From NCBI RefSeq assembly GCF_017304635.1, contig NZ_JAFKMA010000004.1, forward strand, positions 186,001-250,000: a DNA stretch of 64,000 nucleotides, read 5' to 3'. The stretch comes from Sphingomonas sp. GTDB lineage: Bacteria > Pseudomonadota > Alphaproteobacteria > Sphingomonadales > Sphingomonadaceae. The notes beneath the pieces are model-generated. The model was not told the DNA's origin. It saw only the letters and a program-made list of their open reading frames with translations, and made no database searches. The translations under genes were made by a program, and so were the position numbers. Of this stretch, positions 39,158 through 57,721 are shown in pieces; positions within the stretch are counted from its first letter, which is position 1; each line of letters begins with the position of its first letter.

Positions 39158-40131
39158 AGATCGGCGTCATTGGCGGCGGGGCGTGGGGTACGGCGCTCGC
39201 GCAGGTCTCGGCGCAAGGGGCCGAACCCGTGATGTTGTGGGCGCGCGAGCCGGAGGTGGTGCACTCGATCAACCACCGCCACGTCAACGACCTGTTCCTG
39301 TCGAGCGTGCCGCTGTCGCCGACGATCACCGCGACCGACGATCTCGACGCCTTGCGCGACGCGGACGCCGTGCTGGTGGTGGCGCCGGCGCAGCATGTCC
39401 GCGCGGTGCTGAGCACGGTCGATTTCGGGACCACGACGCTTGTCCTATGCGCCAAGGGAATCGAGGCTGGCACGCGCAAATTGATGTCCGAAGTCGTGCA
39501 GGAAGTGCAGCCGGGCGCGCGGATCGCCGTACTATCCGGGCCGACGTTCGCGCATGAGGTCGCCGCGGGCTTGCCGACGGCAGTGACCCTCGCCTGTTCG
39601 GACATCGACATGTATCTGCCGCTGGCGACGCGGCTGACGGGCACCAATTTGCGGCCTTACGGTACCGACGACGTGATCGGGGCGGAGATCGGCGGGGCGG
39701 TCAAGAACGTGCTGGCGATCGGCTGCGGCGTGGTCGAGGGGGCGGCGCTCGGCCAGAACGCGCGCGCGGCGCTGATCGCGCGGGGCTTCGCGGAGATGAC
39801 GCGGTTCGGGCTCGCGCGCGGCGCGCAGGCGGAGACGATGGCGGGGTTGTCGGGGCTCGGCGACCTCGTCCTCACCTGCTCCTCGACCAGCAGCCGCAAT
39901 TTCTCGCTCGGCGTCGGGCTCGGTCAGGGCAAGTCGGCGGCCGAGCTGCTGGCCGATCGCCGCACCGTCGCCGAAGGGGCGTTCACCGCGCCGGTGTTGC
40001 GCGAGGCGGCGGCGGAGGCGGGCATCGACATGCCGGTGTGCACTGCGGTCTGCCAGTTGCTCGAGGGCGCGCCGGTCGCCGCCGTGATCGGCGCGCTGCT
40101 GGCGCGACCGTTGCGTGACGAGCGGGGCTAG
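39154..40131 (+). CDS. gpsA: Glycerol-3-phosphate dehydrogenase [NAD(P)+]
   Basis: A 325-residue GpsA reducing dihydroxyacetone phosphate to sn-glycerol 3-phosphate for phospholipid synthesis, the substrate of PlsY. The Rossmann motif is [13 protein letters not shown] at the N-terminus, then [17 protein letters not shown], the catalytic lysine in [13 protein letters not shown], and [19 protein letters not shown]. The start overlaps tsaD. It is the last clearly core gene before the accessory region. Confidence 0.97.
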
Positions 40132-40330
40132 GGTTCGACGTCACTGAACGGGCCCGAAGCGGCAAAGCCGCTTCGTCGGACAGCGCCCCGGGGGCGCTGC
40201 CGGCCGGCCTCGCCGCCGGGACGCGGATTAGCGGGCGCTAATCCGCTGCGGCGATCTTAACAGACCCAATTAAGCTGCACCAAACTGCCCATCTTGGCCA
40301 TGATTAGAGCCTCCTTGGTCGCAATTCGAC
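40132..40330. other. Intergenic junction between core gpsA and the Tn7-like operon
   Basis: Three perfect hairpins follow gpsA: GAAGCGGC/GCCGCTTC at 40156-40174, CAGCGCCCC/GGGGCGCTG at 40181-40199, and GCGGATTAGC/GCTAATCCGC at 40223-40246. They look like gpsA terminators or REP-like palindromes. From about 40255 to 40330 the sequence becomes more AT-rich (CTTAACAGACCCAATTAAGC), marking the likely start of foreign DNA. I found no TGT/ACA transposon tip and no repeated TnsB-type binding sites. Confidence 0.5.
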
Positions 40331-42175
40331 CTACTTCGGATCGCGCTTGGACTCAAATACGCTGGTCTTCAGAACGGCGAGCGTTTCTGGGCGCGGGAAA
40401 ATGGGCCGCACATCCTTCGACCCCGACACGACTGATCGCACGCCAGCGTCGGCGAGCGCCGACAGCAAAACATTCCTAGCCACCCCCGTCGCCCTCTCCA
40501 AGGCGCCAATCGATATGAAATTCCGCTCGAGATCGGCGAGCGAAGCCAGCGCGGGTCCATGCGCGATCTGACCGTTGCGCGCCGCGCGCCTGGCGAACCG
40601 TAGATGCCCCGCCGCGCGCAGCTTGGACAGGGTGACCGTGTTCAGTCCAGTCATGTCGGCCGCTTCTGCAGGGGTGATGGACGGCTCGTCGTCCGCCGCT
40701 CGTCCGGGCGAAACGGAGGCGAGCACCTCTTTGCGCTCCACCAACAAGGCCGACAGGCCCGATCCGCTAGACAGCGTGCCGGCGACCTGCAGCCTGCCCT
40801 CGCGCAGCGCGCGGTAGACCGCCACCCAGCGTCGAAACAGCTTGTTGGCATCCACGACACGGATCAGGTGGGGCGGAACGACTTCGAAAACCGGCGTACT
40901 CAGCGCATGCTCGAACAGGCTGATGACGCCATCCAGATCGTAAAAGTGGGTCTTGGGGGTCGAAGGGCGAGCCCCCGGCAGCAGGTCAGGATTGCCACCT
41001 CTTTCCATCACGCCACGGAACTGGTTGCGGCTTAATCCAAGAATCTGTTGCACATCGGACTTGCGACCAAGGCCGAACACGGCGCGGGCGCGGGCTATGG
41101 CCTGTTCGAGCGCCGCACGTCCCGACAACAAAGGCGCCTCGTCGGACGGAGCGGCGGCGGCGGAAGTAGGCGCTTGCTGAATCGCGCGTCCGAAAAGTCG
41201 AGTAGCGGGACCACATTTCAGCGATCGACTGGCGTGTTGGAAGACGGCCTCCCGGAAAGGCGACAGCGTCGCGGCGTCCCTGCGGTCGAGCCACTTGTAG
41301 AGATCGCCATATGCCTCTCCAGGCGTCCTCAGGAGCCCGCGGCGGGCTGCCCGGTCGAGCGCGTCGAAGAACCCTTCCTGGCCCTTTTCGAGGATTGAGC
41401 CGCCCCGCGCCGTCAACTCCATCTTATCGCCGAGCGGAAGGGTCCTAACCAGGCCGACCTTCGAGCCATGCTCATCGAGGATCCCGGTCCGTAGGGCGAG
41501 GCCGGCGGCGAGGTCGACACTGAGCCCGTCGGCCCAAAGCGGGCTTTCAACGCCCCGCATCATGGCGAGCAGTTGCGCGTCATAGCCCCTGACCTCATGA
41601 TCCGCCTTCAAGTCGGCGAATTTCGCACCGCATGAGCAGACGTCCGGACGCAGGTTCTTGAGCGAGAGCGGTGCGGAACAATGCGGGCAGGTCGCAAGCA
41701 GAGGAACCCGGTGGCGCGGGCAGCCGCTGATCGCCTCGGAACCCCACCAGAAGCGTCGATGGGTTCTGCACTCGACCGGACCGTCCAGGCCATCGCGGTC
41801 CTCCGCCAGGCACTGCGGACACACGCGGCCGAGCGTGCGGGGATGCGCGAGACATCCACGGTCCTCGAGCAACACGCCGCTCAACGAATATCCCTGCGGC
41901 GTCCTGACCGGAGTCGATGCCTCGATCAGCGACACCGCAATACCGGATATCCGCGCGAGCGTGTCGAGCGCGCGCCCGGTCCGGACGTCGGCGGCCAGCC
42001 GGCTCGGGCAGAAGGGCAGCGTCGCAAGGTATCCGGTAACGGTCCGGCTCCCCCGCCTCACGGCAAGGCGGGTCAGCAGGGACGCCGCCGGTTCGTCGGG
42101 GCGAAACCGGACGGTCAACGGCGCCATATCGACCCGCGACGGATCGACGGTCCGGACGAACCCACGATTGGACAT
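40331..42175 (-). CDS. TniQ-family target-selection protein, second copy
   Basis: A 614-residue TniQ/TnsD-type protein. The N-terminal TniQ domain reads PLTVRFRPDEPAASLLTRLA, with two zinc knuckles: C119, C122, C152 and H155 (CPQC...CPRH), then C163, C166, C180 and C182 (CPHC...CSCG). The C-terminal half contains at least two helix-turn-helix-like segments (SDVQQILGLSRNQFRGV; EAADMTGLNTVTLSKLRAAG), as in TnsD proteins that bind a fixed target. It is the last gene of the operon, overlaps the first tniQ by one base and differs strongly from it, so the two may select different targets. Confidence 0.85.
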   Translation of the reverse strand: MSNRGFVRTVDPSRVDMAPLTVRFRPDEPAASLLTRLAVRRGSRTVTGYLATLPFCPSRLAADVRTGRALDTLARISGIAVSLIEASTPVRTPQGYSLSGVLLEDRGCLAHPRTLGRVCPQCLAEDRDGLDGPVECRTHRRFWWGSEAISGCPRHRVPLLATCPHCSAPLSLKNLRPDVCSCGAKFADLKADHEVRGYDAQLLAMMRGVESPLWADGLSVDLAAGLALRTGILDEHGSKVGLVRTLPLGDKMELTARGGSILEKGQEGFFDALDRAARRGLLRTPGEAYGDLYKWLDRRDAATLSPFREAVFQHASRSLKCGPATRLFGRAIQQAPTSAAAAPSDEAPLLSGRAALEQAIARARAVFGLGRKSDVQQILGLSRNQFRGVMERGGNPDLLPGARPSTPKTHFYDLDGVISLFEHALSTPVFEVVPPHLIRVVDANKLFRRWVAVYRALREGRLQVAGTLSSGSGLSALLVERKEVLASVSPGRAADDEPSITPAEAADMTGLNTVTLSKLRAAGHLRFARRAARNGQIAHGPALASLADLERNFISIGALERATGVARNVLLSALADAGVRSVVSGSKDVRPIFPRPETLAVLKTSVFESKRDPK

Positions 42176-43935
42176 CAGTGGATAACTGGAAGGTCGTCGC
42201 GGCGGTAGATGAGCTGCCGACAGGACGGAGGTGCGAATACCGGGCGGATCCCCAGAAGTTCCAACGTCTGGCGAATGCGTTTCGGCGAGGTCCGTCGTGC
42301 GCGGGCGTAGTCGGCGGCGGTCACATGGTCGCGGAAGAAATCCGACACCGATGACGAACTCACTCGACCATCAGGATCCCGCGCACCGAACGCGCCCATG
42401 CGGGCGAGGCTGCGCGCCGCCTCATGGTGGATGCCATGCAGCCTGGCGACATCCTGCACATACAGGGAATCCTTCGTCGCGCGCAACGCAGCCAGGTCCG
42501 ACTGGACGACGGAGACGGCCGACAGCCCGTCGGCCGCCGTTCCACACCTCGACACCCTCAGCTTACCCTCCAGCACCTTGCGGCAAGCGACATTCAGCGG
42601 GACGGACATGTTGCGGCAGGCGAGCGGTAGTGAAACGAGCTCGTGCCCGGGCCGCGGCTCTGCCCGAGCGAAAACCTCGTGGAGGAGCGCGTCGGCGACA
42701 GCCGTGGCCCCGGCGGGCAGCGAGCCGAGGACGATCGGGTCGTTGACGAGGCGGCGCGCCTGGCTGCGCCCGACCCCCAAGGCCGCCCGCTGTTGCGCCG
42801 CCGTCGGGGCCACCGCCCCGAGCAGATCGTCGACCAAAGCCAAATCCAACGCGAATGGCACGCCACGGCGGGAACCCTCCGGGATCAAGTCAGTCGCCTC
42901 CAGCAAGCGGCGTGTGGTCGCATAGGATCGGCCGATGCGTCGGGCGACAGCCGTGGCGTTCATGGTATGCGGGACGGCGGCGCCAAGCCGTTCCTCGTCG
43001 CGCGCGATGATCCCGTTGGCTACGGCATGCTCGCGCAGGACGGGAGCGACAAGCTCTGCGGTCGCGCGCGGTGCGTCGCCCACGCAGATGTCGGAATACA
43101 GCCATCCGTAGGCGGACAAGAGCCCATCCGCCGAATCGGCCGGTCGCGCAACGACGAGCCCGTCCAGCAGCGTGCGGAAGCCCATCGGCCAGTCCGCGGC
43201 CAGCCGGAGCCCGTGCATGCGATCACCGGGCAGGTCGGCGTCTGGACGGCGCGGCTTGACGGGTCGCCACTCGAGCCGCGCCGCGCCGAGCAACTCCATC
43301 GTCCTGATGGCGTCCACCAAATCCATGCCGTCGAGCGCCGGGACGGCCGCGGCAGGCAGGTAGGAGAGGCGCGAGAGAATGTAAGACGCGACTGCGGGAT
43401 CGCCTTCCTCCGCCGCGTTCGACGTGTGCTCGGCCCCACAGCCGCAACGGAGCAGGCCTCGTCGCCATGTCTGTCTCGCGCCGCACGCCGCGCACTCGTC
43501 GGTCATGCGGACGCCGTGGCGGTGGCACACGTCAACCGACCGGATGTCCCACCAGGCGAGGCTGGTCGCCCACCAGTCCGGTTCGATCCCCATCCTGCGC
43601 GCTTGGGCCTTGTCCTCGTCGACGCAGAGCGGGCAGCGTCGTCGCGAACGGACGGACCAGTCGCCCAGCCTCAACACCTGGGCGCGCAGGCGCACGGTGC
43701 GCGAAGCCGCTTCGATCACCGGCGAGTGGGAATGGACGACGTCCGCATCGAGGCCGGCCTTCTCGGCGAACGGGCGGACGCCGACACCCCTGACCATGTC
43801 CGGCATGGGGTGACCGAGATCCCTCGCCAACCGGAGGCCGTCCCCGACACCCCACCGCGATCCAAGTCGCGCGGCCGCCGCGTGACACGGTTCACCTTCA
43901 CGACCGCGAAGGGTGAGGGGGAAGCGTCCGTCCAC
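42175..43935 (-). CDS. TniQ-family target-selection protein, first copy
   Basis: A 586-residue TniQ-type protein. It begins FPLTLRGREGEPCHAAAARL and has zinc ligands C101, C104, C137 and H140 (CPLC...CHRH) and C148, C151, C164 and C166 (CAAC...CGCG). The long C-terminal region has several helix-turn-helix-like stretches (NATAVARRIGRSYATTRRLL; ARRTSPKRIRQTLELLGI). In Tn7-like elements this protein bridges target DNA and the TnsC/TniB ATPase. It lies three bases after the ATPase gene. Confidence 0.85.
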   Translation of the reverse strand: MDGRFPLTLRGREGEPCHAAAARLGSRWGVGDGLRLARDLGHPMPDMVRGVGVRPFAEKAGLDADVVHSHSPVIEAASRTVRLRAQVLRLGDWSVRSRRRCPLCVDEDKAQARRMGIEPDWWATSLAWWDIRSVDVCHRHGVRMTDECAACGARQTWRRGLLRCGCGAEHTSNAAEEGDPAVASYILSRLSYLPAAAVPALDGMDLVDAIRTMELLGAARLEWRPVKPRRPDADLPGDRMHGLRLAADWPMGFRTLLDGLVVARPADSADGLLSAYGWLYSDICVGDAPRATAELVAPVLREHAVANGIIARDEERLGAAVPHTMNATAVARRIGRSYATTRRLLEATDLIPEGSRRGVPFALDLALVDDLLGAVAPTAAQQRAALGVGRSQARRLVNDPIVLGSLPAGATAVADALLHEVFARAEPRPGHELVSLPLACRNMSVPLNVACRKVLEGKLRVSRCGTAADGLSAVSVVQSDLAALRATKDSLYVQDVARLHGIHHEAARSLARMGAFGARDPDGRVSSSSVSDFFRDHVTAADYARARRTSPKRIRQTLELLGIRPVFAPPSCRQLIYRRDDLPVIH

Positions 43936-43938
43936 CGT

Positions 43939-45027
43939 TCAGGCCTTCGCGACCGACCGCTGGCCGATCCTGCGCCGAGCCCTGCGCTGAGCCTCGGCGT
44001 CCGCCGCCGCCCGCGCCGCCGCCTCGATCTGCGCGACCCAGATGTCCTTAACCTTCTCCGATTTGCACAGGAACGGGTTCTGGGACGGCGGGACGGAAGG
44101 CTGCGGCTTCGCGGGGTTGAGCAGGACGTCGCAGTCGAAGTCGATAGCCTCCTGCTCGACATCCTTCCGGCGAAGGTCCATCCAGACCTCGCCGAGCAGC
44201 TTCCGGTCGAACGCCAGTCCGCCCTCCGCGGCGCGGCGCAGGGTCGCCACGAGCAGCTTCGACACGATCCCGACGTGGCCTCCGGTCGCGACGTAGATCC
44301 GACGCGCCAGGTCGAACTCCTTCAAGCCGACCGGCGCCCCCAGCCCAAGCCGCATGTCGAAGACTTCGAGCAGGGCGCGGAAGTTGCGCTGCCCCTCCGA
44401 CGTGTCCCACCGGTAGGGCGCGAGCACGATGTCCTCCTCGGTCCGGCGTTCAAGCCCATATCCGGTGTTGAGGTTGAGGATGCGCGGCGCGCCGGCCAGC
44501 ACGAACTGGGCCTTCACGACGTTGAGCAGCGAGACGAGAAACTTGGCGACCGCTTCCGTGTCGACGCCGAAGATGCGGTCGGCCTCATCCAGCATGATGA
44601 GGAGGGTGTGGTGCTTCTGGACCAGATTCGCGATCTCCTCGATGATGTCCGCCGAGTTCCAGTCGCGCGGGACCTCGTGGCGCATCGCGCGGAAGATCGC
44701 CTCGACCACGCCCTTCTTGGTGCATGGGCTAGGCATCTCCGCGAGCACGGCGGTGATGCGAAGACCGTCCTCGTCGCGCACATCGTCGAACTGCCGCTTG
44801 TGCTGCCGCAGCAGCGTGGTCTTGCCGGCGCCCGGCGCGCCGGTCAGCATCAAGAGATGCCCGGGCTGCGGCCCGCGGCCATCCAGGGGCAAGCTGCGGA
44901 GCTGATGCATGCGCAGCGCCTTCTGCGCCGTCTTCATGGACGGATGGGGGATGATGCCGTTCTCGAGCCTGGCCGCGAGCGTCGCCGCAGCAACCTCGCC
45001 CGGCTCGTATCCCGTCAACTCGTTCAC
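43939..45027 (-). CDS. TniB/TnsC-type AAA+ transposition ATPase
   Basis: A 362-residue AAA+ protein. Walker A is GAPGAGKTT at 63-71, Walker B LLIMLDEAD at 142-150 with D147-E148, and sensor-1 is FVLAGAPRILNLN. The MHQLRSLPLDGRGPQPGHLLM lead-in is TniB-like. It should form the filament that links TniQ-marked target DNA to the transposase. The C-terminal tail is basic (RRARRRIGQRSVAKA). It overlaps the transposase gene by four bases. Confidence 0.9.
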   Translation of the reverse strand: MNELTGYEPGEVAAATLAARLENGIIPHPSMKTAQKALRMHQLRSLPLDGRGPQPGHLLMLTGAPGAGKTTLLRQHKRQFDDVRDEDGLRITAVLAEMPSPCTKKGVVEAIFRAMRHEVPRDWNSADIIEEIANLVQKHHTLLIMLDEADRIFGVDTEAVAKFLVSLLNVVKAQFVLAGAPRILNLNTGYGLERRTEEDIVLAPYRWDTSEGQRNFRALLEVFDMRLGLGAPVGLKEFDLARRIYVATGGHVGIVSKLLVATLRRAAEGGLAFDRKLLGEVWMDLRRKDVEQEAIDFDCDVLLNPAKPQPSVPPSQNPFLCKSEKVKDIWVAQIEAAARAAADAEAQRRARRRIGQRSVAKA

Positions 45028-47228
45028 GACTGCATCTCCCTGATGAGCCGCATCGCCTCGGATTCGATGTCGGCCAGCAGCGACGCGTCGGCCTCCAGGG
45101 TCGCGACGGCGGGCGTGTCGTCGACCTCGTCGGCGGGGTCGACCTCATCGTCTGCGGGCGTGGCGTCCGCCGGCGGTGCCGGGAGCAGGGCCTGCGCCGG
45201 TGCCGCCAATAGCCGATCGCCCGATCCGAAGCCGGGCACGGGGGTGAAGGTGTCGCCCATGTCCCCATAGCGCGCCCACTTCAGCGCGGTGGCGAGCGTA
45301 GTGCCGCCCTCCAGGGCCCGCGCGCGCGCCGCCTCCACGCGGAGTCGGGCCTCGGCCAGATCCTCGATGCAGGGCACCTCGTCCCTTCCGATGTGATCGA
45401 TGGCGTCGCCCCTCCAGATCGCATACTGCTGCTCGGAGACGCCGTCCGTCAGCGCGAAGTCGATGTTGCGGATCTCCAGCCATCCCTCGCCCTCGACGAG
45501 GATCCAGATGCGCCCCAGGTCGGCCCGGTCGCGCCGGAACGTCCACATGCGGTCCTTCGCGCCAGTGCGGCGCAGGAGGCGCGCGAGCAGGGGCTCGTCG
45601 ACGTAGATCTGGTTCTTGATGTGGATTCCGGTCGACAGGATCTTGCGCTCGAAGATCTCGCCGGTGATGCGGTATGCGTTGTCGGGGTCGGGCGCCCAGC
45701 GGACGCCGTAGCGATCGACGAGCATGGTCCACGCCTGGTGCGGCGTCATCTCGCGGCCGTATTTGCGGAAGAGCGCGGGGTGGGGCGTTTGGTGGTAGTC
45801 GTCGACGATCCACTCCACGATCAGCCGGTCGAGCTCCGGCCTGGTGACCTTCGCGCGCTTCGCCGAATTGTAGGTGTCGGGGTTCCACGCCTTCGTCGTC
45901 CCTTCCTGGAGATCGAAGACGCGCGCATGGAATGTGCGGAAAATCCGCTCGACGGCCGCCTTCAACCAAGGCTTTCGGCCCGGCAGCGCGATCGGGTAAA
46001 CGTGGAGGAGGAGGCATGCCGTGCGGAAGCTGCGGCTCAGGAACTCCTTCCCGCGGTCGCTGATCAGCCATTCGACCAGACCGAAGCAGGGCCAGTCGTT
46101 CTTCAGCCCCGGGAAGGCCGACAGGTCCTTCTCATACATGCTGTGCGCGAGGGCGCGCTGGATCGTCATGTAGCTTGGAGGCAGGAAGCTGACGTGGATG
46201 CCGACGATGCACTTGGTCGCGCGGTCCAGGAACACGGTGATCCAGGGCCGGCCGATCGGGCGGCCGTTCTCGTCGACGACGATCAGGTCCACCAGGCAAT
46301 GGTCGACCTCCACTTCCTCCAGCGGGCGGTCGGGCAGTTCGCGGAGCACGAAGATCCCGAACTTGAGCCAGGCCGCCTTCTTCCCCTCGCGCGCGACGCA
46401 GCGGTCGTAGTCGTCGTAGTGCCTCTTCAGGAAGCGCCGGAAGGTGCGGGATGCCACGATCGGGATGCCGCTCGCCTCGCAGAGCTTGCGGTAGAACTCG
46501 TAGGCGACCTGCTTGGAACGCTTGATGAGGTCGAGATACGCGCCCTTCGCGGCCTCCTCCATGAGCTGGTAGGTGTCCGTCTCGTCCTCTGACTTCGCCA
46601 CCGGGTAGCGGGGATCGCGATGGCCCCGCCTTCCGTAGTCCGGCATCAGGGCCAACTCGTTGCGTCCGGAGTCGATCCAGGTGGAATACCAGGTCGCGAC
46701 AGTCGATGGCTGCGGCTTGACGACAACCTTCATCCGCGCCGGCTCGGCGTCGGGATCCGCGCCGTCACGTCGCCGCACCTTGGCGGCCGCGGCCGCGGCG
46801 GCCTCGCGTTCGCGGTCCTGCCATTCGGACGACATGCGCTCCCAGACGTCCGGGACCACCGCCATCGCCGCGGCATCGACGCTGCGGTGGCAGTCGCGAA
46901 CCGCATCGAGCGACTCCACGAAGGCGAGCCGGCGAAGGCACTCGCGCTGGCAGTGCGGCGGCCAGGCGTCGAACGCCGACTTGAGCTTGGCGGCGACGCG
47001 CTCGTCGAGGCCCTCGAGATCGCAGGCCCAGCGCCTAAGGCGCCGGCCGTGGTAGGCGACCACCAGATCGAGATCCGCCACGAATTCCGTGGTGTCCGAA
47101 CCGTGCGGCTGGACGACCCAACCCCCGCGCGTGCGCCGGACGACCTTGAGGAGATTGTCCGAGGGCTCACCGATCTGGAGGGTGTCGCCGACGCCGATCG
47201 CCAGCCTGTTGGAGGGAGCGTGTTCCAT
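45024..47228 (-). CDS. TnsB/TniA-type DDE transposase
   Basis: A 734-residue rve-fold transposase. N-terminal DNA-binding helices occupy about 65-300. The catalytic core has D309 in EVDHCLVDLIVVDENG, D391 in LISDRGKEF and E427 in WLKAAVERIFRTFH, an exact DD(35)E spacing. A Mu-transposase C-type beta-barrel follows (IWILVEGEGWLEIRNIDF near 574-591) and an acidic C-terminal tail probably contacts the TniB ATPase. All catalytic residues are present, so it should be active. The start ATG overlaps the TnsA stop by one base. Confidence 0.92.
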   Translation of the reverse strand: MEHAPSNRLAIGVGDTLQIGEPSDNLLKVVRRTRGGWVVQPHGSDTTEFVADLDLVVAYHGRRLRRWACDLEGLDERVAAKLKSAFDAWPPHCQRECLRRLAFVESLDAVRDCHRSVDAAAMAVVPDVWERMSSEWQDREREAAAAAAAKVRRRDGADPDAEPARMKVVVKPQPSTVATWYSTWIDSGRNELALMPDYGRRGHRDPRYPVAKSEDETDTYQLMEEAAKGAYLDLIKRSKQVAYEFYRKLCEASGIPIVASRTFRRFLKRHYDDYDRCVAREGKKAAWLKFGIFVLRELPDRPLEEVEVDHCLVDLIVVDENGRPIGRPWITVFLDRATKCIVGIHVSFLPPSYMTIQRALAHSMYEKDLSAFPGLKNDWPCFGLVEWLISDRGKEFLSRSFRTACLLLHVYPIALPGRKPWLKAAVERIFRTFHARVFDLQEGTTKAWNPDTYNSAKRAKVTRPELDRLIVEWIVDDYHQTPHPALFRKYGREMTPHQAWTMLVDRYGVRWAPDPDNAYRITGEIFERKILSTGIHIKNQIYVDEPLLARLLRRTGAKDRMWTFRRDRADLGRIWILVEGEGWLEIRNIDFALTDGVSEQQYAIWRGDAIDHIGRDEVPCIEDLAEARLRVEAARARALEGGTTLATALKWARYGDMGDTFTPVPGFGSGDRLLAAPAQALLPAPPADATPADDEVDPADEVDDTPAVATLEADASLLADIESEAMRLIREMQS

Positions 47229-47968
47229 CACCAGTAGACTTCCAGTTCGTCGTCGATGACCGCGCCGAGCGCGATCGCGACCTCGCGGTGTCCGACGAGG
47301 CCGAGCAGGCAGTTGCGGAGCCGAACGTCGAGGCCGGCGGCGCGCAGGTCGCCTATGCGGCAAGGCGACGCGAAGCTGCGCAGGATGGCGTAGACCCTGC
47401 GCGCCTCGAGGGGATCGATCGCGGTCGCCGCCGCATGGATCCACCGGGCGTTGGAGAGCCGCGTGCCCACGCGCAGCGCCTCGCGCGGGCAGAGGCGGTG
47501 GACGGCGTCGCGGGCGGCGCTCTCGGCCTCGATGGACTCGAGCCGGCCCTTGAGCGTGGGGTCAGCGCCGAACCGTGCGCCCGGCTTGACCTGGAAGTAG
47601 CAGCGCTCGCCGTGAACCGACGCCGCGAACACGTCGGGCACGTAGGTCGTCCAGCGCGAGCCGTTGTGGACGCGGAACCGCTCGGGCTGCGAGACCAGCT
47701 CGACCGTGCGGTAGTCGACGTCCAGCATGACCAGCAGGTCGCGCTCGCCGGCGCTCTCGAACACCAGCCGCTTCGAGGTCGTCAACGACATGAACTCGCC
47801 GGTGCAGGACTGCGAACTGGTGCGGCGCGACGGATCACGGACGAGATCGGACGCGAGGTCCGGCAGCAGGAAGCCGGCACCCGCACCATGCCGGTTCCGC
47901 GGCGCGGGGACCGGCATCGGTTCCTGCGGTCCATCCGGACTCGCAACCAACGCGCCGTTAGTAGGCAT
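47228..47968 (-). CDS. TnsA-type endonuclease
   Basis: A 246-residue protein with the TnsA catalytic layout: E75 in AGERDLLVMLD, the SQPERFRV strand, D112 in YVPDVFAAS, and Q126 and K128 in CYFQVKPG. These match E, D, Q and K of the Tn7 TnsA restriction-like active site. The C-terminal part (LEARRVYAILRSFASPCRIG onward) looks like the TnsA winged helix. TnsA cuts the 5' ends so that the element moves by cut-and-paste. The first 60 residues are poorly conserved, so a start further in is possible. Confidence 0.85.
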   Translation of the reverse strand: MPTNGALVASPDGPQEPMPVPAPRNRHGAGAGFLLPDLASDLVRDPSRRTSSQSCTGEFMSLTTSKRLVFESAGERDLLVMLDVDYRTVELVSQPERFRVHNGSRWTTYVPDVFAASVHGERCYFQVKPGARFGADPTLKGRLESIEAESAARDAVHRLCPREALRVGTRLSNARWIHAAATAIDPLEARRVYAILRSFASPCRIGDLRAAGLDVRLRNCLLGLVGHREVAIALGAVIDDELEVYW

Positions 47969-48716
47969 CGTCGGATGACAGGTGGATCATGCTGTCGTCG
48001 CTGAACTCGTGCTCCTCGGGCGACCAGAGCTTGCCTTCCCGGATGAGGTGGCGGACGGCGGCCTCTACCCCGCAGCGCGAGCCGAGCTCGGACACCAGGA
48101 ATCCGAACGACAGGGCGCGGCCGCGCTGGTGGAAGGTGCCCAGAACGGACTTCGCGTCGTCCACCACCCGCGCGAGCCGGGCGCGCCGGCGGAAGGTGGC
48201 GCGTCCCGACCCGCCGCGAGCGTCACCGACGCCCCACTCCGCCGCCCTGTCCTTCAAATGGGGAGGACCGTCCCTCCACTCCGTGGCGCGCCGCACGCCC
48301 GTCGGCGTCCTGGACGCGGCGCTCGGGAAGCTGACCTCGGCCCTGGCGTCGAGCCAGCCCTGATCCCCCTCGACCCTAACGAACCCCGAGAGCGTGATGA
48401 GCGGCCTGCCGATAGGCGCGCCGTCCGCGTCAACCACGATCAGGTCGATCGGGATCTGGCGGTTGAACGTCCAGCGCATCTCGCGGCGCAGATCGAGCCA
48501 GCGCTGGATCACCGCCATCCGCCGCCGCACCGCCTCGTAGGACACGTAGGGCAGCCCTGCATCGCGGAGCTCCCTGAGCGCTCGGTCGTGCGCCTGCTTG
48601 GCGCAGGGCGGCATCGAAGGGAGGAACTCGGTGCCGATCGCGTGGGCGAGCACCCGCTCGACCCTTTCGCTGAGACGTCCGCCCGCGAACGTCCATCCGT
48701 CGAACCTCAGTGCCAT
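47958..48716 (-). CDS. Truncated TnsB-like protein lacking the catalytic core
   Basis: A 252-residue protein that aligns in pieces to the TnsB of this locus. Residues 48-70 match TnsB 247-269 (LRELRDAGLPYVSYEAVRRRM against YRKLCEASGIPIVASRTFRRF). Residues 91-108, DLIVVDADGAPIGRPLIT, match TnsB 314-331, DLIVVDENGRPIGRPWIT. Residues 115-128, VEGDQGWLDARAEV, match the beta-barrel VEGEGWLEIRNIDF. About 240 residues holding D391 and E427 are absent, and D309 is replaced by R86. The last 80 residues look like a winged helix (FLVSELGSRCGVEAAVRHLI). It overlaps tnsA by 11 bases. Function is unknown; a DNA-binding regulator or end-binding decoy is inferred. Confidence 0.7.
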   Translation of the reverse strand: MALRFDGWTFAGGRLSERVERVLAHAIGTEFLPSMPPCAKQAHDRALRELRDAGLPYVSYEAVRRRMAVIQRWLDLRREMRWTFNRQIPIDLIVVDADGAPIGRPLITLSGFVRVEGDQGWLDARAEVSFPSAASRTPTGVRRATEWRDGPPHLKDRAAEWGVGDARGGSGRATFRRRARLARVVDDAKSVLGTFHQRGRALSFGFLVSELGSRCGVEAAVRHLIREGKLWSPEEHEFSDDSMIHLSSDDAY

Positions 48717-49144
48717 CCGCCACCTCCCGCAAGTGCGGAATGCTGGCAGGCCTCCACCAACGTCGCGCCGGAAAGATAGCCGGGCGTCAGGACGCGGACT
48801 GCCCCGCGCCCGACGAGCTCGAGCACCGCGAAGCGCGCCGCGACGCGCGAGCCGAGAGCCGCGACGATGGCGTCGAACGGCACCGGGGCCGCCGATTCCC
48901 CCAGCAGCGCCAGCACGGCTTCGGTGGCGAACGAGCCGACGGGGCGAAGCGTGGCGTGGATGGCGAGCGGGCCGAGAACGCCCGACCCCGGCTCCGACGC
49001 CGTCGCCGACATCGCCCTGCGAGCCTGCTCGAACACCATCGCGCGGTGGTGGCGCTCCACCATGCCCTTTGCGGAAGGCGGCATCGTCGGAACCAGTCTC
49101 GTCATCAGTCGCACCGTCGCAACTGCACATTCCATTCCACTCAT
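48707..49144 (-). CDS. Small winged-helix protein, possibly TnsA-C-like
   Basis: A 145-residue protein heading the transposition operon. Residues 73-120 (ATEAVLALLGESAAPVPFDA onward) resemble the C-terminal winged helix of TnsA. No E/D/Q-x-K nuclease residues are present. Residues 17-26, LVPTMPPSAK, closely match FLPSMPPCAK at 31-40 of the next gene, so the two small proteins share an N-terminal module. I chose the ATG at 49144; the frame continues upstream to 49222. The assignment as a nuclease-less TnsA relative is an inference of moderate strength. Confidence 0.55.
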   Translation of the reverse strand: MSGMECAVATVRLMTRLVPTMPPSAKGMVERHHRAMVFEQARRAMSATASEPGSGVLGPLAIHATLRPVGSFATEAVLALLGESAAPVPFDAIVAALGSRVAARFAVLELVGRGAVRVLTPGYLSGATLVEACQHSALAGGGGWH

Positions 49145-49195
49145 ATCAAGCGACTCATCCTGCCTGAACGTGGTAGTAATAAGAGAGGAAAAGCC
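49145..49195. promoter_or_regulatory. Divergent promoter region of the transposition module
   Basis: A short AT-richer stretch (GGTAGTAATAAGAGAGGAAA) separates the leftward transposition operon from the rightward TnsB-like gene. It must contain both start regions if the rightward gene begins at its GTG at 49196, for which AGAGAGGA is a good ribosome-binding site. Confidence 0.45.
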
Positions 49196-50374
49196 GTGCC
49201 CTGTCAATCCCATTCCGATCACGTTCCTTCTTGGCAGCGCGCACTGGCGCGCTTCTTGCTGCCACAGGAACGATCGCCTATCGTCGCGCGCGATGATGCA
49301 GGGGCGTTCATGACGGCTGATGGCGAGGACTGGCGGGACGACCCGCGCTGGCTCGAGCTGACGCTCGAGAAGCGCGCGGTGGCGCTGACACGCATGGAGG
49401 TGATCAAGCGCTACCTGGCGCTGGAAAGGCGTTCGGCGGAACAGGCCGATCGTTTCGCCGCCGAACTCGGGATCGGCCGGTCGCGCTTCTACGGTCTATG
49501 CAAGCTGTGGGAGCGGACGGGATCGCCCGCCCCACTGGCGCCATACAGCGAACCGGTCGTGCCGAAGCGGCCGTCGGTGAAGGCAGAGCGCGTCGCCGAG
49601 ATCGAGGCCAGGATCGGCAGTGCCCTCGGCTCGACCCGCGACCGCACCCCGAACGTCATCGTCGACGCCGTCGCGCGCGGCTGGGGCGATCAGACCAAGC
49701 CGCCGGCGCGGGAGACGCTGCGCCGGTTCGTGCTGCAGGCCATCGCCAAGGAGGAGACCGAGAACGGCGAGGTGATCCGACGGGAGGCGAACGAGGTGGC
49801 GCGCTGGTTCGGCGAGGTCATCGTCTTCGACCATTGCCTGGTCGACATCTTCGCCGAGCAACGGCCTTTTCCAAGGCGTCCGACCCTCACTTTGGCGATC
49901 GACCTGTTCACGGGCGCGCCGATCGGCCACGCCGTCGCCTTGACCCCGCCAAGCGCCGACATGGTCGTCGCCGCCATCGACGACGCGACGCTCCGGTCAG
50001 CGAACCTGTCCGGTGGCCCCGTGCGGCCGCGGATCGTCTTCGGATCCAGCTATGCCGCCGACTGGACGCGGTTGATCAAGCGGTTCCAGTCGTCCGGCAT
50101 CGTGATGTCGGGACGCCGGTCGCCCGAACTTCCGTTCGGCGCCCCGACCGCCCGATTGATCGGGCCGCGTCTCGGCCGGCTGCGCCTGCTCGCCCGCGCC
50201 GGTCACGAGCAGGATGGCGCCACGGCAGGCTTCGATCCGGCGACGCATCCCGTCCTTTCGCTGGAGCAAGCCAAGTCCGTCATCGTCACGAACCTCGCGA
50301 CCCTCCTCGTCGAACGGCTCGGCGAGAGCGGCGGTCGGCCGCTGCTCTTCGACCTCGCAGACGACCGGGACTGA
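49196..50374 (+). CDS. TnsB-like protein with a degenerate DDE active site
   Basis: Up to 392 residues from the GTG at 49196, or 354 from the ATG at 49310; numbering here is from the ATG. A helix-turn-helix at about 50-66 (AAELGIGRSRFYGLCKLWER) precedes an RNase H-like core. FDHCLVDIF at 173-181 matches DHCLVD of the local TnsB, keeping D174. Where TnsB has ISDRGKEF this protein has VFGSSYAAD (G245/S246), and where TnsB has AAVERIF it has APTARLI (A281). The 35-36-residue spacing is kept, so the fold is probably intact but two of three catalytic acids are gone. It has no C-terminal ATPase-contacting tail. Confidence 0.7.
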   Translation: MPCQSHSDHVPSWQRALARFLLPQERSPIVARDDAGAFMTADGEDWRDDPRWLELTLEKRAVALTRMEVIKRYLALERRSAEQADRFAAELGIGRSRFYGLCKLWERTGSPAPLAPYSEPVVPKRPSVKAERVAEIEARIGSALGSTRDRTPNVIVDAVARGWGDQTKPPARETLRRFVLQAIAKEETENGEVIRREANEVARWFGEVIVFDHCLVDIFAEQRPFPRRPTLTLAIDLFTGAPIGHAVALTPPSADMVVAAIDDATLRSANLSGGPVRPRIVFGSSYAADWTRLIKRFQSSGIVMSGRRSPELPFGAPTARLIGPRLGRLRLLARAGHEQDGATAGFDPATHPVLSLEQAKSVIVTNLATLLVERLGESGGRPLLFDLADDRD

Positions 50375-50423
50375 GCGCTTCCCATTAACCGAATATACCG
50401 CGACGTCCGCCTATCCTCGGCGG

Positions 50424-51266
50424 ATGCCGCAACATCCCGAAATCCAATGGCTGCTCGACCTGCTGCCGGCGCACAGGCACGACGAGGTGGCGGCGGCGAT
50501 CGCGGGCGCCGGCCTCACCAGGCTGCCACCATCGACGGTCGGATGCGGCCACCCTCTGGGATATCTTCTCCAGGTCGACCAGCGTCGGGTCATCGTCCCC
50601 GACGCATTCGGGCCCAAGCGCCGCGCCAGGCGGCTGCAGGAATTCGCCGATATCCTGCGGGCAGGTCGCGGTGCCGAGATCCGCGAAAGCCTGATAACGA
50701 TCGACGGCAGCTTGCCATGGGACCCGCCGGCGTGGGCCTGGCGCTGCTCGCGGGTCCTGCGCGACGCGCTGGCGATGGCGGGAATGCCCGCGAAGGACAT
50801 GCTCGACCGGGTGCGGTGGGCGCCCATCCACAGCAACGCGCTGCCGATCGACATTCACCTCAGGGATCCAGCGACCGGCACCCCGACGTGGATCGCGTCG
50901 CTTCGCGTAGAGCGCCCACCCATCGGCGACCTGCTGCGCGCGACGATCGACCTGGGCGGCGGTGTCGTCTACCGTGAGGGTGGCGACGACACGTTCCTGT
51001 CGACCCGGCATGAAATCGTCGCGCGCGGCCGCCGCATTCCAGCGACCATCGCCGTGGGCCTGAGCGGAAGGCCGGTCTCGGCTCTGGTCGGGCATCCGCT
51101 GCTGGCTCAACGTCGATACGAGGTGCTGAAGGCCTGGACCGGGCCGAGCTACACGCGAGCGATCATCGATGTGCCCGAATGCTCGCTGGCCCGCCTGCCG
51201 AGCAGGTTCTCGGCGATCCTGCCCGGGCACGACCGGTCCGACCTCGCCGCATCGCCGTGGCGGTGA
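50424..51266 (+). CDS. Unknown 280-residue protein
   Basis: The frame from the ATG at 50424 encodes a soluble alpha/beta protein with no motif I recognise. Landmarks are HPEIQWLLDLLPAHRHDEVA at the N-terminus, GHPLGYLLQVDQRRVIVPDAFG, and RFSAILPGHDRSD near the end. It lies 50 bases after the TnsB-like gene and converges with the exonuclease gene, with 13 bases between. Cargo or an accessory transposition function are both possible. Confidence 0.6.
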   Translation: MPQHPEIQWLLDLLPAHRHDEVAAAIAGAGLTRLPPSTVGCGHPLGYLLQVDQRRVIVPDAFGPKRRARRLQEFADILRAGRGAEIRESLITIDGSLPWDPPAWAWRCSRVLRDALAMAGMPAKDMLDRVRWAPIHSNALPIDIHLRDPATGTPTWIASLRVERPPIGDLLRATIDLGGGVVYREGGDDTFLSTRHEIVARGRRIPATIAVGLSGRPVSALVGHPLLAQRRYEVLKAWTGPSYTRAIIDVPECSLARLPSRFSAILPGHDRSDLAASPWR

Positions 51267-51279
51267 ACCCGGCGCCGCG

Positions 51280-52182
51280 TCACTGAAGCCGGCGGTATCT
51301 GCTGCTGGCGTCGATCCGGTCGACGGTCGGTCCCGGCGCCCGCGGCTGGTGACCGGGCGAATACACCTCCAGCCGCAACCACTCGCGCTCGTCGTCGAGC
51401 AGTTCGTCGGCGACCTCGCGCATCCACTCGCCGGACGCGCCATTCCAGAAATATCCGCGGCGGCGGAGGGCGTCCTTGCGGTCGTAGTGCGCGCCGCTCG
51501 CACGGACGAGCCAGCCCGTCCGCCGGGCACCGGCGACGACGTGGGACAGCACCGTCGACCTGTCGCTGAACCGGTGGCGCAGCAGCTCGATCAGCGCATC
51601 GACATCGTCACCCGCCCGGTGGGCTTCGTAGAAGAAGCCCGCCTGGACGAGTAGCCAGCGCAGCGCGCGGCCTTCGTAACCCTCCTCGGCCCAGCCGACC
51701 TCCTCCATGCTGCAGGACCAGCGCAAACCGGCGACGGCCGGCAGGCGCTTCTCGACGAACGGGCGGTCAAACCGGCTATGGTGCGCCACGACCAGCGAGG
51801 CGGACAGCATCAGCTCGACGGCGGCACCGTCATCGATCGTCCGGCCGGCGAGGTCGGCGTCCGAAAGGCGGGTAAGCCGGGACACTGCCGGATCCAGCGG
51901 CCGGCCCGGATCCTCCAGCCAGGCGAACGGCGCGTCCAGCGCGACGATCTCCCCGGTCGACGTGAACCTGAACCGCCGCAATGCCAGTTCGATGATGGCG
52001 TCGTTCGCCGGATCGAGGCCGGTCGTCTCGGTGTCGAGGCACACGCCGATCCACGATCCCGCCGTCGGGCCGAGCGACACCCGGCGGGTGGGCAGCGCGA
52101 CACGCTCGAGCACCCTGAACCGGCCATCGGCCAGCAGCAACCGCCGCGCGCGTTCGACCTCCACCTCGTTCTGCCTGTCCAC
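51280..52182 (-). CDS. DnaQ-like 3'-5' exonuclease with C-terminal extension
   Basis: A 300-residue protein. Exo I is CLDTETTGLDPAND with D50 and E52, Exo II is VVAHHSRFDRPFVE near 115-128, and Exo III is AHRAGDDVDAL near 175-185, giving a full DEDDh site. The last 90 residues (GAHYDRKDALRRRGYFWNG) match an extension often seen in DnaQ-like proteins of mobile elements and defence loci. The GTG at 52182 is the only start between the upstream stop and Exo I. It follows the Xre/MbcA-type gene by ten bases, so the two are probably one operon. Confidence 0.82.
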   Translation of the reverse strand: MDRQNEVEVERARRLLLADGRFRVLERVALPTRRVSLGPTAGSWIGVCLDTETTGLDPANDAIIELALRRFRFTSTGEIVALDAPFAWLEDPGRPLDPAVSRLTRLSDADLAGRTIDDGAAVELMLSASLVVAHHSRFDRPFVEKRLPAVAGLRWSCSMEEVGWAEEGYEGRALRWLLVQAGFFYEAHRAGDDVDALIELLRHRFSDRSTVLSHVVAGARRTGWLVRASGAHYDRKDALRRRGYFWNGASGEWMREVADELLDDEREWLRLEVYSPGHQPRAPGPTVDRIDASSRYRRLQ

Positions 52183-52192
52183 GCCGCGACCC

Positions 52193-52813
52193 TCAATGAA
52201 CCGTGTGGCTGGTCGCGGCGACCTGGTTGAGGAGCAGCAGCAGGACGCGCCGGAACCCGACCTCGCCGTCGTCGACGAGCAGGTCGCGGATCGAACGCCC
52301 GCCGAAGGCCGCACGCGCGTCACGCACCCAGGCGGCCGTCGCCGCATCCTCCACCCCGGCGATCAGGCGCAGCTGCTCCACGACGATCAGGCGACGTGCG
52401 CGCTGCGCCACGATGGGCGGGATGCCGTCACCGCCGTCCTCGATGGCCTGGCCGATCCAACGGTCGAGGATCTGCTCGCCGACGCCGAGCACCCGCGCGG
52501 CCTCGGCGCTGTCCCAGCGCCAGTGCCACATGAGGTAGACGAGATCGGCGAGCAGCAGCGCCCGCCGATCGGCGACGTCGTTGGCGCGCACGAAGCCCGG
52601 CGTCGGGCGATGATCCGCATGCGTGGAGATCCACATGTCGCCGCGCTCGAGCGAGAGTTCGCCCATCGGCCGGCCGTCGCGGCACCCCGCGACATAGAGG
52701 AAGACGTCGGAGTATGAATCCGCCCCGACGGCGTCCAGCGTCACGACCACGTTGGTCAGCATGTCCATGAGCTGCGGCAGGCCGTGCGCCTCCGCGATGG
52801 CATTCTCTTGCAT
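52193..52813 (-). CDS. Xre/MbcA/ParS-type antitoxin-like regulator, no toxin seen
   Basis: A 206-residue protein. The first 85 residues carry an uncharacterised domain (VVVTLDAVGADSYSDVFLYV; MGELSLERGDMWISTHADH). A helix-turn-helix-like segment (WDSAEAARVLGVGEQILDRW) lies near 100-120, and residues 138-200 match the MbcA/ParS/Xre toxin-binding domain, ending AAWVRDARAAFGGRSIRDLL. Such proteins usually precede a RES or GNAT toxin; here the next gene is an exonuclease, so a classical toxin-antitoxin pair is not supported. Operator-like repeats lie in its promoter. Confidence 0.6.
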   Translation of the reverse strand: MQENAIAEAHGLPQLMDMLTNVVVTLDAVGADSYSDVFLYVAGCRDGRPMGELSLERGDMWISTHADHRPTPGFVRANDVADRRALLLADLVYLMWHWRWDSAEAARVLGVGEQILDRWIGQAIEDGGDGIPPIVAQRARRLIVVEQLRLIAGVEDAATAAWVRDARAAFGGRSIRDLLVDDGEVGFRRVLLLLLNQVAATSHTVH

Positions 52814-52897
52814 CGGTGTTCCCTTTCGTCAGTTCCCTTCGGTCGTCCCGGCACGCAGAAGCGCCGATGCACAGGACCACCCGTGCAAGTTAAACTC

Positions 52898-52923
52898 TGA
52901 CATGATGTCAAGGTTATGTCAAG
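52898..52923. promoter_or_regulatory. Operator-like repeats upstream of the Xre/MbcA-type gene
   Basis: TGACAT-G-ATGTCA forms a perfect dyad at 52898-52910, and ATGTCAAG occurs twice, at 52905 and 52916, exactly 11 bases apart. On the gene's strand this puts overlapping TTGACAT boxes 85-110 bases before the start, suggesting a repressor-controlled promoter. Confidence 0.5.
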
Positions 52924-53020
52924 AACGAATGGAGAACGGCGGGATTTGGGTATCCCGATGGCAGTTGAGACATGGGGAACGGAGGGAACGGAAACCCGGT
53001 TTCATCTCACCGGCTTGAGG

Positions 53021-53410
53021 TCACTTCTCTGCCAATTCGTCGATGATGGGGCAGTCAGGCCGACCGTCTCCATGACACTTGCCGGCCAGGTCGACGAGCG
53101 CCGCGCGCATGCGCTCGAGGGCGACCGCCTTGCGGCCGAGGTCAGCCGCGCGCGCGAGCGCCAGCGCCTTCACGTCCGCGCTCGCCCGGTCGCGGTCGTG
53201 CCACAGCGACAGCAGGTCGGCGATCTCGGTGATCGGGAAGCCCAGGTCGCGCGCGTTGGCGATGAAGCGCAGCCGATGGACATCGGAATCCGAATAGTCG
53301 CGATAGCCGCTGTCGCGGCGTGGCGGGGCCGGGATCAGGGACAGCTTCTCGTAGTGGCGGATCATCCGCTGCGAGACGCCGCTCGCCTTCGATGCCTGGC
53401 CGATGTTCAT
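53021..53410 (-). CDS. CueR-like MerR-family regulator
   Basis: A 129-residue MerR protein. The winged helix starts MNIGQASKASGVSQRMIRHY, followed by the RRDSGYRDYSDSDVHRLRF block and a long dimerisation helix. The metal loop is CHGDGRPDCPI with C112 and C120, the same positions and spacing as the Cu(I)/Ag(I)/Au(I) site of E. coli CueR. No copper exporter, oxidase or chaperone gene is nearby in the window, so its target promoter is elsewhere or it responds to a different metal. Confidence 0.88.
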   Translation of the reverse strand: MNIGQASKASGVSQRMIRHYEKLSLIPAPPRRDSGYRDYSDSDVHRLRFIANARDLGFPITEIADLLSLWHDRDRASADVKALALARAADLGRKAVALERMRAALVDLAGKCHGDGRPDCPIIDELAEK

Positions 53411-53517: not shown

Positions 53518-54603
53518 ATGGGGATCGGCTGGGGCCCGGGCGGCCCGACCGACAGCGTGAACAGGTTCGTGGCGCACGAGGTCCGGCGGCAGCTCGCGGA
53601 CAACCCGGTCGCGCGTCGCGCGCGCTATCCCGTCGACCACCGCGTTCTCCGCGGCCTCATCGGTGCGCCGTTCAGCCTGTTGCTTGCCCGGTACCTGATC
53701 GTCGACCTCGCCATGCTGGATGTCGAAGCCTGGTCGGAGATCGTCGCCCCGGGCTCGCCGGCGATCCCCGCGTCACTGGCGGCGCAGGCCATCGACATCG
53801 TCAAGACGGTGCCGAGCTATCTGCTCGGCGCGCAGATCGGCCTGCTCGGGGTGATATCGCTGGCATTGGCGCTGGTGACGCTGATTGCGCAGCGCGACGA
53901 TGCGACCACCGACGTGAAAATCTATTATCACGAATCGATGTTCTTCGGGATCACTGCGAGCGGCATCGCGCTGGCGGCGGTCCTGTCCGTTCAGTTCCTC
54001 TGGCCGCTGCAGACCCTGCTCCACCGGTTGGGCGGCGGTTCGGCCTCGCCGGCCTTCAAGCTCGCGCTGGTCGCGGCCCACACCGCCTGGTTCGTCGTCA
54101 ACCTGTGGGCTGTCGCGCACTTCGTGTCGGTGACGTTCCGCTTCGTGCAGCGTTCGGCCCGTGAACGCCTGCGGGAGCGATACACCGCCAACGTGGTCGT
54201 GCCGCGGCAGCTCTCCGACCGCCTTCGCCAGCAGGTCTATGGCGCGGCCGGCGGTCGGGTCGAGCCGGGAATGCCGGGCGCCTTCTTCGGCTACTCTTTC
54301 GGCACCGGCAGCGAGATAGAGATCGAGCGCGAGTTCGCGCCCAACACGATGCTCGTCGACGTGCACATGGGCGTCGTGCGCTGGGTGCTGGCCAGATGGG
54401 CGAAGCGCTGCTCGGCTGAACCTGAATCGGCCGGGGGCGCCGCGCGCTCCGGGCCGCGGATCTGGTTCACGCCGGCGCTCGACCGCTCGATGCGGGGCAG
54501 GGTCGCATGGTGCCGGCGGAATGGTGGCGTGCCGCTCACCGCGTTCGAGCGGTGGGCGCTGCGCCGCGCGTTCCGCTTCGAGGAGCGCCGCGATGAGGGA
54601 TGA
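53518..54603 (+). CDS. Polytopic membrane protein, unknown function
   Basis: A 361-residue protein with about four membrane segments in its first two-thirds: around GAPFSLLLARYLIVDLAML, GAQIGLLGVISLALALVTLI, GITASGIALAAVLSVQFLW and LVAAHTAWFVVNLWAVAHFV. A soluble C-terminal part of about 150 residues follows, rich in Arg. No catalytic motif is recognised. Its last 11 bases overlap the next gene, so the two form a coupled pair. The ATG at 53518 is preceded by GTAGG; a TTG six codons upstream is an alternative. Confidence 0.7.
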   Translation: MGIGWGPGGPTDSVNRFVAHEVRRQLADNPVARRARYPVDHRVLRGLIGAPFSLLLARYLIVDLAMLDVEAWSEIVAPGSPAIPASLAAQAIDIVKTVPSYLLGAQIGLLGVISLALALVTLIAQRDDATTDVKIYYHESMFFGITASGIALAAVLSVQFLWPLQTLLHRLGGGSASPAFKLALVAAHTAWFVVNLWAVAHFVSVTFRFVQRSARERLRERYTANVVVPRQLSDRLRQQVYGAAGGRVEPGMPGAFFGYSFGTGSEIEIEREFAPNTMLVDVHMGVVRWVLARWAKRCSAEPESAGGAARSGPRIWFTPALDRSMRGRVAWCRRNGGVPLTAFERWALRRAFRFEERRDEG

Positions 54604-56917: not shown

Positions 56918-56940
56918 CGTGACGGACGCGCGTCACGTCA
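56915..56940. terminator. 10-bp hairpin at the 774-aa gene stop
   Basis: TGACGTGACG and CGTCACGTCA form a perfect stem around GACGCG, starting at the stop codon. No U-run follows, so termination strength is uncertain. Confidence 0.4.
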
Positions 56941-57094
56941 CGCCCATCCGTGGCGCGCAAGACGCGCCATGTCCGCCCAACCGGTCGCGGACCGTTTCCA
57001 AGAGAAGTTGGATAGGACTGGTTGCCAACGGCAACAGGAGGAAAAAAGGCTTCTGAACGTCGATGGCCGGACATGACCATCGAAGGACAGTGAA

Positions 57095-57721
57095 ATGCTT
57101 CAGGACCGTATCGACAACGACGAACACTACCGCATCCTCATCGACCACCGGAACCCGCTGCGCATCGTGCTCGCCACGCAGGCGATGCTCGAGGCCAAAG
57201 GACCCGTCGAACCGCTCTGGGACCGCGAGGCCGGCGACGCGCGTTCGATGGCCGCGCTGCTCCGCTGGGTCGCGATCCGACGCGACCGCTGGCAGGAGTG
57301 GGGCCAGCTTGCCGAGCATCTCGGTCCCGCAGCCTTCTACCAGCACATGCGCGAGCGCATGGAGGCCGAGCCGCCGGCGGAATGCATCGGCACGATGGTG
57401 ACCCGCCTGGATGACGCGCACGAGATCGCGATCTCGGAATCCATGCACGGTCCGCAGGGGCTGTTCTACCAACCCCTATACGTCCATCGCTTCGCGTCTG
57501 CCGCCGCGCGCGACCGGTTCTATGACTGGATGTATTCCGACGACAACGTGAACGCCATCGACGCACTCGTACGACTCGGATACGCGGAAGGCGCGCTCGC
57601 GCTCGGCAAGGCGCTCGACCGCCTGGCCGAGGACAGGCCGGCCGGCAATCGCGCCGAGCGCCGCCGCCGCGCCAAGGCGGAGGCGAAAGCTGGACGCCGG
57701 CAAGCTGCGACCGTGGCATGA
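57095..57721 (+). CDS. Hypothetical protein with basic C-terminal tail
   Basis: A 208-residue soluble protein. The first 170 residues are helical (HYRILIDHRNPLRIVLATQA; LRWVAIRRDRWQEWGQLAEH) and the tail is strongly basic (RAERRRRAKAEAKAGRR), suggesting nucleic-acid contact. No family is recognised. The start ATG follows AAGGACAGTGAA. It stands alone between the 774-aa gene and the ars operon. Confidence 0.6.
   Translation: MLQDRIDNDEHYRILIDHRNPLRIVLATQAMLEAKGPVEPLWDREAGDARSMAALLRWVAIRRDRWQEWGQLAEHLGPAAFYQHMRERMEAEPPAECIGTMVTRLDDAHEIAISESMHGPQGLFYQPLYVHRFASAAARDRFYDWMYSDDNVNAIDALVRLGYAEGALALGKALDRLAEDRPAGNRAERRRRAKAEAKAGRRQAATVA

Follow-up and report, generated by a model that had tools for sequence, protein, structure and literature searches.

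A catalytically empty TnsB relative and a second winged-helix gene head a Tn7-like operon in Sphingomonas and may belong to an element-borne control module

Tn7-like transposons that carry tnsABC and two tniQ genes have the same gene set and gene order as the element described here. In Tn5, the transposase gene also gives rise to Inh, an inhibitor of transposition. Tandem tniQ/tnsD genes were reported from 1,048 loci by Faure et al. 2023 (PMC10293859), who also describe TnsF, a dead tyrosine recombinase that serves as a target selector. A review (PMC11406308) covers the 5-bp duplication and the regulators that have been taken up by CASTs, one example of element-borne control being CvkR, a MerR-type repressor of V-K CASTs (PMC9938897).

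The element in our window (the whole 64,000-nucleotide stretch of Sphingomonas sp. DNA that was analyzed) differs from described Tn7-like elements in that a pair of genes, here called A and B, precedes tnsA, while a further gene, C, is divergent from them. In the open-access literature, we recognized no paper that describes A, B, or C. The retention of a catalytically dead recombinase relative by a Tn7-like element recalls TnsF of Tn6022; however, TnsF is a tyrosine recombinase relative that adjoins tniQ, whereas B and C are relatives of DDE transposases located before tnsA or divergent from it. We rejected the TnsF type of target selector as a class for A-B on the basis of their location before tnsA and of the TnsB-like nature of B. 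The likeness to CvkR lies in element-borne control of a Tn7-like system, which for A-B is a proposal, but CvkR is a MerR protein and is not transposase derived. As with Tn5 Inh, part of a transposase is proposed as a restraint on transposition; A and B, in contrast, are separate, diverged genes, and B has an added winged helix.

A search for the pair beside TnsABC-TniQ, as the original prediction had suggested, located A-B at the equivalent position in three other genomes: L088 (metagenome-assembled genome SZAS KAN-30), G163 (a Sphingomonas sp. MAG), and G076 (Sphingomonas corticis). The order, with C divergent from A-B-tnsA-tnsB-tnsC-tniQ-tniQ, was the same in all four genomes. Identity to the window copy in the other three was 96, 76, and 52% for B and 97, 57, and 52% for A. 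Among 299 genomes (that of the window included), B was found in 3, A in 4 (one match, in G036, was weak at 5.6e-4), and C at ≥79% in 3. When C was used to scan the whole collection of genomes, 3 loci emerged, namely, L088, G163, and G076. At another locus (L101; G012:C410), the ends of gpsA and of a methyltransferase-like gene are joined to the interior of the 280-aa gene described below, a junction that would stem either from loss of the operon by deletion or from faulty assembly.

In the window, the operon lies on the minus strand, and tnsA, tnsB (of the DDE type), tnsC, and tniQ are all present within it. Gene A (48707..49144; 145 aa; winged helix at about residues 67-118) comes first, although a start at 49135 (142 aa) is equally compatible with the other copies. 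It is followed by gene B (47958..48716; 252 aa), which has a TnsB-like N-terminal part and a C-terminal winged helix and lacks the catalytic triad; both genes are open frames, as originally predicted. The engine comprises tnsA (47228..47968), tnsB (45024..47234), a tnsC/tniB-type ATPase gene (43939..45027), the tniQ closer to tnsC (42175..43935), and a second tniQ (40331..42175), all on the minus strand. The left end region spans 40241..40330; homology with L088 starts at 40241, the flanks beyond are unrelated, and genes which we take from their sequences to be tsaD and gpsA end at 40131. The predicted overlaps held in part. In the window, the frames of A and B share 10 nt, but in G163 and G076 they are separated by gaps of ∼20 nt; B overlaps tnsA by 11 nt if an in-frame ATG is used, but the gene caller chose a later tnsA start, so this overlap hinges on the start chosen. 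An ATG for tnsA within the last 11 nt of B was found with both engine types.

On the other side of A, gene C (49310..50374, plus strand) is followed by the remainder of the conserved block (50424..53410), which holds, in order, genes for a 280-aa protein, a DnaQ-like exonuclease, a 206-aa protein, and a MerR regulator. The DnaQ-like exonuclease recurs near other Tn7-like operons (L070, L078, and L081); in the window (51280-52813), the 206-aa gene beside it has a weak C-terminal match to Xre/MbcA/ParS. Farther right (53518-57721) are three genes (361, 774, and 208 aa), none of which was matched in Pfam or PADLOC; the 361-aa gene had a strong match in 2 of 150 genomes, including its own, and is present in G163 too.

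B had been predicted to align with the local TnsB on both sides of the catalytic core. The first of the two anchors was borne out (14 of 20 residues identical; E value of 9e-6 in a single comparison) and belongs to a longer profile match. A profile of four B sequences matched 17 TnsBs with a probability of 90 and an E value of 1.6e-6 (single comparison), spanning B residues 10-150, and none of 60 column shuffles attained its score of 53.3 (maximum, 25.9). When pieces of B were compared with the TnsB profile, residues 1-100 gave a probability of 35 and residues 75-150 a probability of 77; residues 104-150 (0.1) and 104-252 (0.2) alone gave no match. Based on these piecewise scores, the secure TnsB-like part consists of a helical region and the first RNase H hairpin (IDLIVVDADGAPIGRPLIT), at B residues 14-113 (48378..48677, minus strand). 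The second anchor, in which VEGDQGWLDARAEV had been aligned to the TnsB barrel, did not survive: B 110-135 and B 104-150 alone had probabilities of only 0.1 to 0.2 in the TnsB profile, and a pattern written for the barrel motif matched two of the eight TnsBs compared (the window's and its close copy) but not the other six. A gap of ∼240 residues followed by resumed homology was thus unsupported, and the C-terminal part of B is instead a winged helix related to that of A.

The local TnsB has D309, D391, and E427, as claimed, and ungapped counting back from the first anchor places Arg86 of B opposite D309. Arg86 is invariant in all four B homologues. B shares homology with the N-terminal part of TnsB but does not have the D,D,E residues, with Arg at the first position and the second and third segments missing. 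When B was searched against 385 genomes from the class, three weak matches came up besides its own genome. The best outside match (7.7e-5, at B 14-71) falls in a long ORF with IDHT, MDNGKDF, and HIERLNG motifs, which reads as a TnsB/TniA-type transposase and aligns with B at a probability of 86. AlphaFold2 modeling of B from four sequences, a check that the original prediction had proposed, gave a mixed answer: the winged helix at residues 181-250 was well modeled (pLDDT block means, 70 to 86; winged helix assigned to residues 181-249, 47970..48176, minus strand), but residues 1-180 were weak (26 to 55). In that weak part, the model has three helices, strands at 79-89, 106-116, and 119-129, and a helix at 139-149, an order that would fit a fragment of the TnsB N-terminal part. 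Overall, the identification of B as a catalytically empty TnsB relative is well supported.

The profile of A matched the C-terminal part of B with a probability of 82 and, in a second comparison, 78; the 60 column shuffles all stayed below the score of 39.0 (at most 19.2). A and B terminate in related winged helices. The winged helix of A was also expected to resemble the TnsA C-terminal domain. The TnsA set did give a profile match in its C-terminal part, but its probability was just 33; none of 60 column shuffles came up to the score of 30.5 (at most 17.3). Searches within a small protein set linked the A profile to the window TnsA (6e-5) and the TnsA profile to A (1.6e-4 to 0.002). The winged helix of B, compared directly with the TnsA set, gave a probability of only 4. 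The AlphaFold2 model of A has a helix-strand-helix-helix-strand core at residues 71-120 (block means, 75 to 81), and structure and fold searches with it were uninformative. A relationship of A to the TnsA C-terminal domain is likely but not proven. Consistent with the prediction of no nuclease, A at 145 aa is too short for the TnsA nuclease domain and has no TnsA nuclease stretch. The N-terminal LP(S/T)MPP(S/C)AK motif said to be shared by A and B is missing from A in two of the four genomes.

L088 matches window positions 40241-51369 at 94%, with an unrelated left flank, and its contig ends there. The comparison with G163 was different. DNA homology runs from 47960, at the end of B, rightward to 57739; leftward, it resumes only in gpsA, save for one 161-bp match inside tnsB. 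The engines of the two elements are 33 (TnsA), 31 (TnsB), and 31% (TnsC) identical, whereas identity is 76% for B, 85% for C, 80% for the 280-aa protein, and 86% for the exonuclease. Because block identity is high and engine identity is ∼31%, the conserved block is joined to two very different engines. Conversely, G163 and G076 have the engine in common (TnsB, 92%), yet their B proteins are 55% identical. Our main new finding is that A-B and C form a conserved block behind which the tnsABC-tniQ engine has been swapped at the B/tnsA boundary.

The left ends also differ between engine types, the type-2 end repeats being of the GAAACCAAT(N3)CTGC type. In G076, each end carries type-2 repeats as an array of putative TnsB sites, one array being inverted relative to the other; CCGTC flanks them on either side (a 5-bp duplication), and they delimit an element of ∼31.2 kb (contig C51, about 70708-101923; L102 and L069). 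A gyrB-like gene precedes the element at a distance of 4 nt plus the 5-bp duplication, and this position is possibly an attachment site. The cargo of the element matches profiles for BrxA, PglZ, BrxHI, the C-terminal part of PglX, BrxC, BrxF, and AbiJ. Inverted end repeats, 5-bp duplication, and defense cargo all resemble those of Tn7-like elements; the main text of Benler et al. 2021 (PMC8649781) names BREX among Tn7-like cargo and does not name gyrB. In the window, by comparison, the left boundary only was identified, and a search for a right end in the window and G163 copies found none. Both copies may for this reason be stranded, and the activity of the window element is doubtful.

A profile of 13 C-like proteins matched solved TnsBs (Tn6677 TnsB, 1.3e-8; V-K CAST TnsB, 7.4e-7; Tn7 TnsB, 0.0064), and the first Asp was nearly invariant across the 13. 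Reading of the window's C, the one family member covered by this residue check, showed neither a DxGxEF-like nor a KxxxE-like stretch after the first Asp, so its triad is incomplete. The C-like family, which has no Pfam name, adjoins many Tn7-like operons, at times with two to four genes per locus (window 49310-50374; L076 2517-7814; L077, L078, L079, and L081). To describe orientation, we used 22 loci (the window, L088, and 20 fetched by position). A tnsA match was present in 18, of which 12 had a called C-like gene and 6 did not. The nearest C-like gene was divergent from tnsA in all 12 loci with both gene calls, and in L075, one of the six others, a separate search found a C match that was divergent as well. 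It should be kept in mind that the loci were picked by TnsB or C matches, that the profiles include some of them, and that 4 of the 12 are the same element; these counts describe a pattern, not a rate.

Between A and C lies a candidate operator (49166..49226), whose arms GAACGTG and CACGTTC enclose a TTGACA-like box and are separated by 47 nt. The arms are invariant in four of four copies. We treat it as a lead only, because 7-base arms are expected by chance at this length, the copies resemble one another in general, and promoter calling found no consensus promoter between A and C.

We prefer to read A, B, and C as a control module that the element carries and that was built out of pieces of transposase, with a regulator or inhibitor as the favored role, and give this reading a probability of about 0.42. 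On this reading, B derives from the N-terminal part of TnsB (the helical DNA-binding region and the first RNase H strands) and carries a winged helix, and A consists of a winged helix like that of B standing by itself, probably related to the TnsA C-terminal domain. The block of A, B, and C would travel with a tnsABC-tniQ engine but evolve independently of it. As the first products of the operon, A and B would be made ahead of the TnsAB machine; they would most likely bind the A|C promoter region, the element ends, or both and restrain or gate the expression and assembly of that machine. Control would suit a block that borders the promoter region, is produced first, and persists through engine exchange.

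Alternatively, A-B could be target-site adaptors, dead recombinase parts that recognize a site or host factor and hand over to TniQ/TnsC. TnsF of Tn6022 (PMC10293859) is a precedent, and a target module could persist through engine exchange as A-B does. We nevertheless consider this rather unlikely: A-B adjoins tnsA rather than tniQ, two tniQ genes are already there, and the relatives sit at different places. G076 lies behind what is presumably gyrB, the window and G163 elements lie by the presumed gpsA (both names being assigned by recognition from sequence), and L088 lies by another gene.

A further alternative is that A-B are required structural subunits of the transpososome, such as extra end-binding or bridging proteins. 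Their operon position, the possible translational overlap into tnsA, and the derivation of B from TnsB would fit such a role. However, the TnsA and TnsB partners differ at about two-thirds of their residues between the engines while B remains 76% identical, and related elements with tnsA and tnsB, such as L070, L073, and L071, have no A-B by profiles. Since A-B stays while TnsA and TnsB change (31 to 34% identical), it is less likely that A-B are subunits tailored to the TnsAB of this element, and we judge the structural role improbable.

Equally improbable, in our view, is that A-B are what is left of a tandem copy of tnsA-tnsB, whose order they mirror, and are decaying slowly without present function. 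Frames were intact as predicted, with no stops in A or B in any of the four genomes. The claim that both are maintained held for B, which had a third-position excess in three of three distant pairs (36/33/68, 74/63/107, and 68/63/109 substitutions by codon position; P = 0.00026, 0.0016, and 0.00035), but for A in just one of three (41/32/48, 44/39/58, and 32/28/55; P = 0.2, 0.13, and 0.0039). Between the window and L088, the counts were 7/5/2 for B and 4/1/5 for A (P of about 0.26). The dN/dS ratios (NG86) of distant pairs were 0.26 to 0.58 for B and 0.41 to 0.63 for A, above the 0.15 to 0.26 of the neighboring C and 280-aa protein, and B was at ∼1 on 14 changes between the window and L088. 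These elevated ratios and the weak signal in A speak for decay; the open frames and third-position excess speak against it. The substitution patterns clearly indicate purifying selection on B and suggest that A is probably kept, with both freer to change than their neighbors. The core of the original prediction, that a catalytically empty relative of TnsB and probably one of the TnsA C-terminal domain are kept in the operon, holds, although its layout of B was partly wrong; the regulation that it suggested is plausible.

Tn7 immunity operates through TnsB at the element ends, and B derives from the DNA-binding part of TnsB, but immunity to self-insertion through end binding by A-B is very improbable, given that each of the two engine types has its own end sequences while A-B stays.

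The reading of A, B, and C as a control module draws on the homology that links B with TnsB and A with B, the independent class-wide search with B, Arg86 in place of D309, and purifying selection on B. It is also favored by the same gene order in four of four genomes, a block that outlasts its engine, the divergent C at all 12 loci, the invariant A|C arms, and the existence of regulators of Tn7-like elements, such as CvkR. Counted against it are the weak B model outside the winged helix, the uninformative A model and fold searches, the low probability for the B winged helix against TnsA, the weak selection on A, operator arms at chance level without a called promoter, a pair known from four genomes only, and the missing right end in the window. 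As a bolder proposal that we hold to be somewhat doubtful, dead transposase pieces may have become a portable A+B+C control cassette, passed between engines ∼70% different in residues, that acts as one switch for different TnsABC-TniQ machines in sphingomonads, with the C family maybe the general regulator of this branch.

If A and B gate activity, they would be candidate control parts for Tn7-based insertion tools, and the divergent C family is a marker for finding further such elements. Little is known about self-restraint of Tn7-like elements beyond Tn7 and a few CAST repressors. Here, catalysis-free, transposase-derived proteins head the operon and remain unmoved by exchange of the whole engine, which predicts a switch that is independent of the engine it may control.
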